Assembly (NCBI GenBank): GCA_026710655.1
Contig: JAPOQN010000001.1
Coordinates: forward strand, 124,001-188,000
DNA from: Chloroflexota bacterium
GTDB taxonomy: Bacteria > Chloroflexota > Dehalococcoidia > Tepidiformales > Tepidiformaceae
Length of the DNA stretch: 64,000 nucleotides
Direction of reading: 5' to 3'
The notes beneath the pieces were generated by a model. The model searched no databases, was not told where the DNA came from, and saw only the letters and a program-made list of their open reading frames with translations. A program made the translations under genes and the position numbers. Shown here in pieces: positions 21,259 to 21,578 of this stretch (positions are counted from its first letter, which is position 1; each line of letters starts with the position of its first letter).

Positions 21259-21372
21259 CTAACAGCAGTCGTCCTTGTATCCGCAACGCCGGCAGACAGC
21301 CAGGCGCGATCCCTTGATCGCCGAGAGCGGGCCGAGGCAACGCGGGCACGTCTGCAAGGGAATCTCAGCCAT
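21259..21372 (-). CDS. 37-residue zinc-ribbon micro-protein
   Basis: A small gene read on the minus strand: ATG 21372 preceded by GGGAGGAACG, TAG at 21259-21261. The product starts [12 protein letters not shown] and has a second knuckle VCRRCGY about 18 residues later, ending KDDCC. Two CxxC pairs are the normal four ligands of a zinc ribbon, and two more Cys end the chain. It is divergent from katG (207 bases apart) and convergent to the GreA fusion gene. Function unknown; with katG next door and a Cys-rich tail, a redox-responsive or RNA-polymerase-associated role is a guess. The strong ribosome site and the cysteine pattern support it as a real gene. Confidence 0.7.
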
Positions 21373-21393
21373 CGTTCCTCCCGTGTAGTCGGC

Positions 21394-21421
21394 CCTTTGC
21401 CGGTGTCCTGCCCGGCAAAGG
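21394..21421. promoter_or_regulatory. Inverted repeat between the zinc-ribbon gene and katG
   Basis: CCTTTGCCGG, 8-base spacer, CCGGCAAAGG: perfect 10-base arms. No T-tract follows on either strand. It lies upstream of both divergent genes, so an operator is more likely than a terminator. Confidence 0.5.
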
Positions 21422-21435
21422 CTATTCTGCTTACC

Positions 21436-21459
21436 CTGGAGGACAATTTCTACCTCCAG
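21436..21459. promoter_or_regulatory. Second inverted repeat upstream of katG
   Basis: CTGGAGG, 10-base AT-rich spacer, CCTCCAG: perfect 7-base arms, 14 bases after the first repeat and 23 bases before the katG -35. A site for an activator or redox repressor is possible. Confidence 0.4.
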
Positions 21460-21482
21460 CGAGCAAGTCCCGCCCCTCCTTT

Positions 21483-21512
21483 TTCACAGAGTCGACAATC
21501 GAGGGCTACAAT
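21483..21512 (+). promoter_or_regulatory. katG promoter (-35 and -10)
   Basis: TTCACA (21483-21488), 18-base spacer, TACAAT (21507-21512). Predicted leader of about 60 bases with a weak CGAGGA ribosome site before ATG 21579. Confidence 0.5.
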
Positions 21513-21578
21513 GCGGCGGGCTTGCAACGGCTCCGGAAACCCGGGCCGTACCCAGAAGACTTCACAGCGAGGACCAGA

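Follow-up and report, generated by a model that had tools for sequence, protein, structure and literature searches.

A conserved zinc-ribbon-like microprotein with a C-terminal Cys-Cys pair in Chloroflexota, and its changing neighbour katG

The microprotein locus

The window is a stretch of 64,000 nucleotides of Chloroflexota DNA (contig JAPOQN010000001.1), from a genome assembly of 3.14 Mb in 71 contigs. A gene for a 37-residue microprotein with two Cys pairs and a Cys-Cys end lies here between a convergent GreA-like gene and a divergent katG (Table 1). The gap between the microprotein gene and katG is 206 bases long (21373-21578), with the katG ATG at 21579, and holds two inverted repeats and a katG promoter. 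The original prediction had described the open reading frame, its Cys pairs and Cys-Cys end, the gap, both repeats and the promoter, and all of them were recovered at the positions that it gave.

Table 1. Features of the microprotein locus (window coordinates)
Feature	Position	Strand	Basis or remark
GreA-like gene with an N-terminal extension of ~118 residues, convergent neighbour	20421..21239	+	23/26 loci
Gene of the 37-aa zinc-ribbon microprotein	21259..21372 (stop codon included)	-	open reading frame; homologues; selection
Shine-Dalgarno-like GGGAGGAA ahead of the microprotein ATG	21375..21382	-	inferred from sequence; GGGAGG, RBS-like
Inverted repeat 1 (10-bp perfect arms, 8-base loop)	21394..21421		upstream of the microprotein, 21 bases from its start
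Inverted repeat 2 (7-bp perfect arms, 10-base loop)	21436..21459
katG promoter, TTCACA-18-TACAAT	21483..21512	+	10/12 matches
katG, catalase-peroxidase, lineage-specific neighbour	21579..23705	+	NF011635, 1246 bits; TIGR00198, 1133 bits
Cupredoxin gene	23802..24146	+	Pfam Copper-bind above cut-off; on the divergent side of the microprotein, 24/26 loci

Coding status and constraint

Microproteins of such size are readily missed by annotation. That this one is a real coding gene, Cys-rich and with a zinc-ribbon pattern, as had been predicted, is borne out by purifying selection and by homologues in relatives. Pooled over all pairs of 26 sequences (34 codons), pN/pS is 0.25 (pS 0.587, pN 0.149), whereas the five other reading frames of the 26 homologues give 0.57-1.80; the open reading frame is thus conserved beyond chance. 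When the window copy is compared with those of eight relatives in its genus, pN ranges over 0.013-0.059 and pS over 0.45-0.68. Substitution patterns of this kind strongly support translation of the gene into a protein under strong purifying selection. At three loci where katG lies beside the gene (L036, L038 and L039), an in-frame start codon occurs 17 residues earlier, and the microprotein may therefore have 54 residues there.

Distribution and invariant residues

A profile built from 26 homologues matches in 26 of the 38 genomes of Tepidiforma's family, spread over 10 of 18 genera. The carriers include all nine genomes of the window's genus and Tepidiforma flava YIM 72310. The remaining 12 family genomes gave no match; of the 22 genomes with completeness of 90% or more and contamination of 5% or less, four gave none. 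In a sample of the class, at least 21 of 294 genomes match, one of them (G062) outside the family. In a sample of the phylum, at least 31 of 400 Chloroflexota genomes match at an E-value of 1e-5 or better. Because no more than 26 (class) and 19 (phylum) candidates were scored in each genome, the true numbers may be higher. The 31 phylum matches comprise two in the family, a weak and partial one (G364) that was set aside, and 28 others (L099-L126). Both knuckles occur in all 28, as does a Cys-Cys with nothing or only Tyr or Phe after it, and a typical microprotein from outside the family has a variable N-terminus and then CPVCGxPMPDLKGGKATICPxCGFKDSCCY. The class of G388 has the microprotein in 12 of 47 genomes, in families f93, f115 and f118, and family f101 of that class has no match in 29 genomes. 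A contig titled Candidatus Woesearchaeota archaeon, archaeal by its record title, also carries a copy (L095). No relative was confirmed in viral contigs (92 stretches with the pattern) or in plasmids, and the single phage match was poor (E 0.8) and lay within a tape measure gene.

Eight columns are invariant in an alignment of 32 members: six Cys (C9, C12, C27, C30, C36 and C37) and two Gly (G21 and G31). These members were picked for diversity. Left out of the alignment and read separately were L097, L099, L100, L102, L116 and L121, as well as many family sequences that are nearly identical; all of them keep the eight columns except one that is cut by a contig end. Within the family, the Cys-Cys is present at 25 of 26 loci, in one case (G018) followed by six further residues, and the remaining locus is truncated by the end of its contig. 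The Cys-Cys tail and the presumed zinc ligands are equally invariant, and the last 19 residues are nearly letter-identical across the genera of the family. Among the open-access papers searched, none is about this microprotein family, judged by title and abstract, and it is apparently undescribed in Chloroflexota.

Likeness to zinc ribbons

The knuckle Cys are invariant in 32 of 32 members, and nearly all frequent weak matches of the microprotein to known families are zinc ribbons or zinc fingers. Every match of the window copy stays below the curated cut-off (Pfam, 16.5 bits against 26.3; NCBIfam, for example 18.2 against 120 for TFS4), and the same holds for the NCBIfam matches of L014 and L095. 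For the other members, E-values alone are available for Pfam and NCBIfam, none of them below 4e-6. In Pfam, the commonest weak likeness is the Cas12f1-like TNB ribbon (25 of 26 family sequences and 20 of 32 aligned members), which says nothing on redox function. It is followed by Zn_Ribbon_1 (17/32), TFIIB (14/32) and Cys_rich_CPCC (10/32, best E 0.00036). In NCBIfam, the weak likenesses are to TFS4 (23/32), RNA polymerase subunit P (14/32), S27ae (9/32), HVO zinc-finger models (HVO_0649 in 5/32, best E 0.026) and HypA (1/32, E 0.051).

Structural comparison gives a similar picture. Profile matches to PDB chains include optineurin and TFS4 (E ~0.003) and the designed finger Aart and TFS4 (E 0.0015). 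The AF2 model, for which 26 sequences were used, is of modest quality (pLDDT 78.9, pTM 0.43) and has two short strands. A Foldseek search of the PDB with this model returned many ribbons, such as L32, Rpb9-like, L40e, TFS4 and HVO_2753, with none of 42 matches reaching E 0.001.

Adjacency to katG

The original prediction paired the microprotein functionally with katG. This pairing did not hold. By tblastn, katG adjoins the microprotein at only six of the 26 family loci. Five of these adjacencies are divergent and all in the window's genus, and the sixth, in G015, is codirectional. Even within the genus, four of nine genomes have the microprotein and no katG beside it. The presence of the two genes is also independent. 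A katG match was found in 29 of 38 family genomes, five of them as fragments below the cut-off, and it occurs in 20 of 26 genomes with the microprotein and in 9 of 12 without; both presence counts are lower bounds, the assemblies being incomplete. Given co-occurrence and synteny, we reject katG as the partner of the microprotein.

The KatG tree bears on the history of the adjacency. In G029 and G031, both of the window's genus, katG sits at another place in the genome, and the KatG proteins of these two branch as sister to the five adjacent ones; katG has therefore changed place within the genus. The KatG of G015 clusters with those of other genera, so the two katG adjacencies look independent. 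An ancient adjacency that was lost repeatedly is a possible alternative to independent arrivals. The neighbourhood in one genome can mislead, as katG does here.

Twenty katG loci were compared, and they have few common neighbours. In G003 and G007, a gene of Fur-like appearance (judged by eye) adjoins katG.

Inverted repeats and promoters

The regulatory DNA around the microprotein has turned over and the protein has stayed: the repeats are not conserved, and the promoter block of other genera is a different one. In the window, repeat 1 is improbable by chance, since 10-bp arms arose in the gap in 8 of 2000 dinucleotide shuffles, and the RNA of 21373-21425, which contains it, folds into a strong hairpin (z -4.5). 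Arm pairs of 7 bp are less remarkable: five were observed in the gap, nested ones included, and at least one occurred in 411 of 2000 shuffles. Searched across the window, the sequence of repeat 2 gave one match, and 100 shuffles gave none. In 20800-21800, a promoter of the katG type was observed once, where shuffles of this stretch held 0.1 on average.

The repeats had been read as shared operators of the two genes, and a lack of conservation next to katG in related genomes had been named beforehand as a finding that would refute the prediction. Both repeats are absent from all four other genomes of the genus in which katG lies beside the microprotein, and an exact search of its own genome found repeat 1 nowhere else. 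We therefore reject the shared-operator reading. At three loci (L034, L035 and L037), the same stretch holds a single repeat with perfect 7-bp arms whose sequence differs, so a hairpin as such may recur; L036 and L038-L041 have none. The sequence around the katG promoter is alignable among the five genomes of the genus with katG at this place; TACAAT is kept in all five and TTCACA in four. When the katG promoter string of a relative was sought in the window, nothing was found within three mismatches, and only the two hexamers are common.

In other genera, the microprotein promoter has a different conserved block around GTCAAGC, found at 11 of 17 loci outside the window's genus. At several of these loci, TTGACA and a -10-like hexamer follow the block close before the start codon. 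This closeness of promoter and start suggests a leaderless microprotein transcript there. Allowing one mismatch, 23 places with the motif were listed in the 38 genomes, nine at microprotein promoters and 14 elsewhere. A reversed-pattern control gave 35 places against these 14, and so no regulon was found. One of the 14, a copy with a single mismatch (L151; G021:C199:3870-3884), precedes katG by ~220 bases and may be due to chance; G021 itself lacks the microprotein.

A conserved non-coding block was seen ~150-250 bases upstream of the microprotein, with a GGCCCC-type hairpin and then GAGGCGGGGTG-GCGA. It is present at 10 of the 30 loci scanned (L043-L046, L048-L050, L052, L055 and L056), gave no Rfam match at the six of them searched, and is possibly a terminator with a small RNA. 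Rfam likewise matched nothing in 19000-24500 of the window or in six relatives.

Steadier neighbours

Two genes accompany the microprotein more regularly than katG. The exceptions to the cupredoxin gene on the divergent side are one contig end and one absence; those to the convergent GreA-like gene are one contig end and two absences within the sequence available. The GreA-like protein has 272 amino acids, and its N-terminal extension is alignable across genera of the family (seven sequences). For the window sequence, this extension matched nothing in Pfam, and NCBIfam gave a weak XerC match at residues 39-106 (E 0.039). The gene possibly encodes a transcript-cleavage factor fused to a DNA-binding-like domain. 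A second place with a GreA/GreB domain exists in the same genome.

Other neighbours are more restricted. A small convergent gene (~91-145 aa as called) with CxxC pairs of its own (CLHCG...CRRCNGPM) lies just downstream of the microprotein, between it and the GreA-like gene, at 13 of 26 family loci (L042-L046, L048-L053, L055 and L058). It was not found at the nine loci of the window's genus, and its Pfam match is sub-threshold only. At five loci (L034, L037, L042, L047 and L057), a MIP gene of the aquaporin family, identified by a Pfam run on the L042 copy, takes the slot of katG between the cupredoxin gene (absent in L057) and the microprotein. Neither katG nor MIP is in this slot at 15 of the 26 loci.

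Outside the family, 30 stretches of 3.5 to 17 kb were compared. The window's KatG, GreA-like protein, RsmG and cupredoxin have no tblastn match there (E 1e-4), and the enoyl-CoA hydratase has two. No widely recurring neighbour was found in these stretches; the commonest neighbour cluster is an SDR-type gene with 11 members. The set of neighbours is another one, and the context there therefore differs altogether.

Possible functions of the microprotein

Our best explanation, which we hold tentatively, is that the microprotein is a free-standing zinc-ribbon member of a Chloroflexota family whose tail dithiol handles electrons or metal, the gene being independent of katG. C9, C12, C27 and C30 would most likely be the ligands of one zinc and give the protein its small ribbon fold. 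The stretch IKGSRLAV...GYKDD, near-invariant within the taxonomic family of the window, is a probable interaction face that a partner would read. The C-terminal Cys-Cys is the likely chemical end, a dithiol that may transfer electrons or capture metal together with a partner protein. In part of the genus, katG would have moved into the space beside the microprotein. The invariant Cys-Cys end makes this a concrete hypothesis at residue level.

A somewhat unlikely alternative is a structural adaptor, in which the ribbon docks on RNA polymerase, the ribosome or nucleic acid and the Cys-Cys is only a feature of folding or metal affinity. The commonest weak NCBIfam likenesses, to ribbons of transcription and the ribosome, point in this direction, as do the TFS4 and S27ae chains found in the PDB by sequence and the ribbons L32, Rpb9-like and L40e found by fold, none of them significant. 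The convergent GreA-like gene and the very conserved middle of the microprotein are also consistent with it. However, TFS4 and S27ae are far below their cut-offs where these are given, the PDB lists include the unrelated fingers optineurin and Aart at similar E-values, and the 30 stretches outside the family held no match to the GreA-like neighbour. Furthermore, the patchy distribution, even among good-quality genomes, argues against a part of the core machinery. The other steady neighbour, the divergent cupredoxin gene, would fit a small thiol buffer or metallochaperone for copper or zinc linked to it. Six Cys within 37 residues and the likenesses to Cys_rich_CPCC and HypA agree with such a role, which is nevertheless doubtful, as the likenesses to metal families are weak and the cupredoxin too had no match outside the family.

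The peroxide or redox sensor of the original prediction, acting with KatG via shared operators, is improbable, although katG reached the slot beside the microprotein in two lineages in opposite orientations. Some aquaporins pass peroxide, and the MIP gene in the same slot at five other loci is a curious coincidence. Against a sensor of this kind stand the independent presence of katG, its adjacency at so few loci, the 15 loci with neither gene in the slot and the unconserved repeats, repeat 1 lacking any other exact copy. The invariant C-terminal Cys-Cys leaves room for a redox role as such, but nothing was found that links the microprotein to peroxide. A precursor of a modified peptide (RiPP) with a C-terminal Cys-Cys is highly improbable. 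The short protein with its conserved C-terminus and the Gly-Gly step in many members from outside the family would suit it; no recurrent maturase or transporter was recognised by eye among the neighbour clusters, and the conserved knuckles, CPxCG and CxxCG, point to a ribbon instead.

Comparison with known systems

Archaeal TFS/TFS4 proteins carry an N-terminal ribbon, a linker and a C-terminal ribbon in one protein of ~90-100 aa, and the corresponding NCBIfam models are 90 and 101 long. Their N-terminal ribbon has the CPxCG...KG...VCxxCGYxD pattern that is also seen in the microprotein. The microprotein, in contrast, has a single ribbon and an extra Cys-Cys, and with the TFS4 score given above it falls outside TFS/TFS4. 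In MerA and thioredoxin reductase, a C-terminal adjacent thiol or thiol-selenol pair passes metal or electrons. These pairs are tails of large flavoenzymes, unlike the microprotein, and no homology is claimed.

The small zinc-finger proteins HVO_2753 and HVO_0758 of Haloferax volcanii are of comparable build, with two C(P)xCG motifs in less than 70 aa. The microprotein matches HVO_2753 (6ydh) weakly, by both fold and profile. The Haloferax proteins are archaeal, whereas the microprotein is from Chloroflexota. According to excerpts of the published accounts, their phenotypes concern swarming, biofilm and, in some conditions, growth, and which metal they contain had to be measured and could not be assumed (PMC10716476, PMC11241148, PMC6562870). 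Some of them may bind no metal or another metal (excerpts of PMC11241148), which counts against the zinc reading of the microprotein.

A possible parallel in architecture is the Cys-rich C-terminal domain (CRD) of the class II ribonucleotide reductase NrdJ, and both have six conserved Cys at the extreme C-terminus. For the NrdJ tail, four zinc ligands and a redox pair have been proposed, and S. nassauensis NrdJ needs all six Cys of the tail to be active with TCEP (excerpts of PMC5704485). In P. aeruginosa the CRD is encoded as a separate gene, NrdJb. An hhalign comparison of the microprotein profile with the NrdJ tail gave 93% probability over 25 columns, run without an unrelated-ribbon control. 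The architectures therefore look similar at the level of sequence, but the CRD is given in the source excerpts as 150-220 aa long, against 37 aa in the window, and the two Cys proposed as its redox pair lie 12 positions apart, whereas those of the microprotein's Cys-Cys are adjacent, so that the Cys spacing differs. The microprotein does not replace a missing NrdJ tail, because its hosts keep their own: the NrdJ end was read in 22 of the 26 genomes with the microprotein, and the tail is intact in every one of these 22. Among 30 NrdJ loci, one (L194, from a genome without the microprotein) ends without the tail pattern. A bolder reading, which we regard as quite doubtful, is that the microproteins are phylum-wide, stand-alone, zinc-scaffolded dithiol carriers, relatives or look-alikes of the NrdJ tail. 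As few as 37 residues would then form an independent shuttle for electrons or metal, exchanging them through the Cys-Cys with a partner enzyme of its own.
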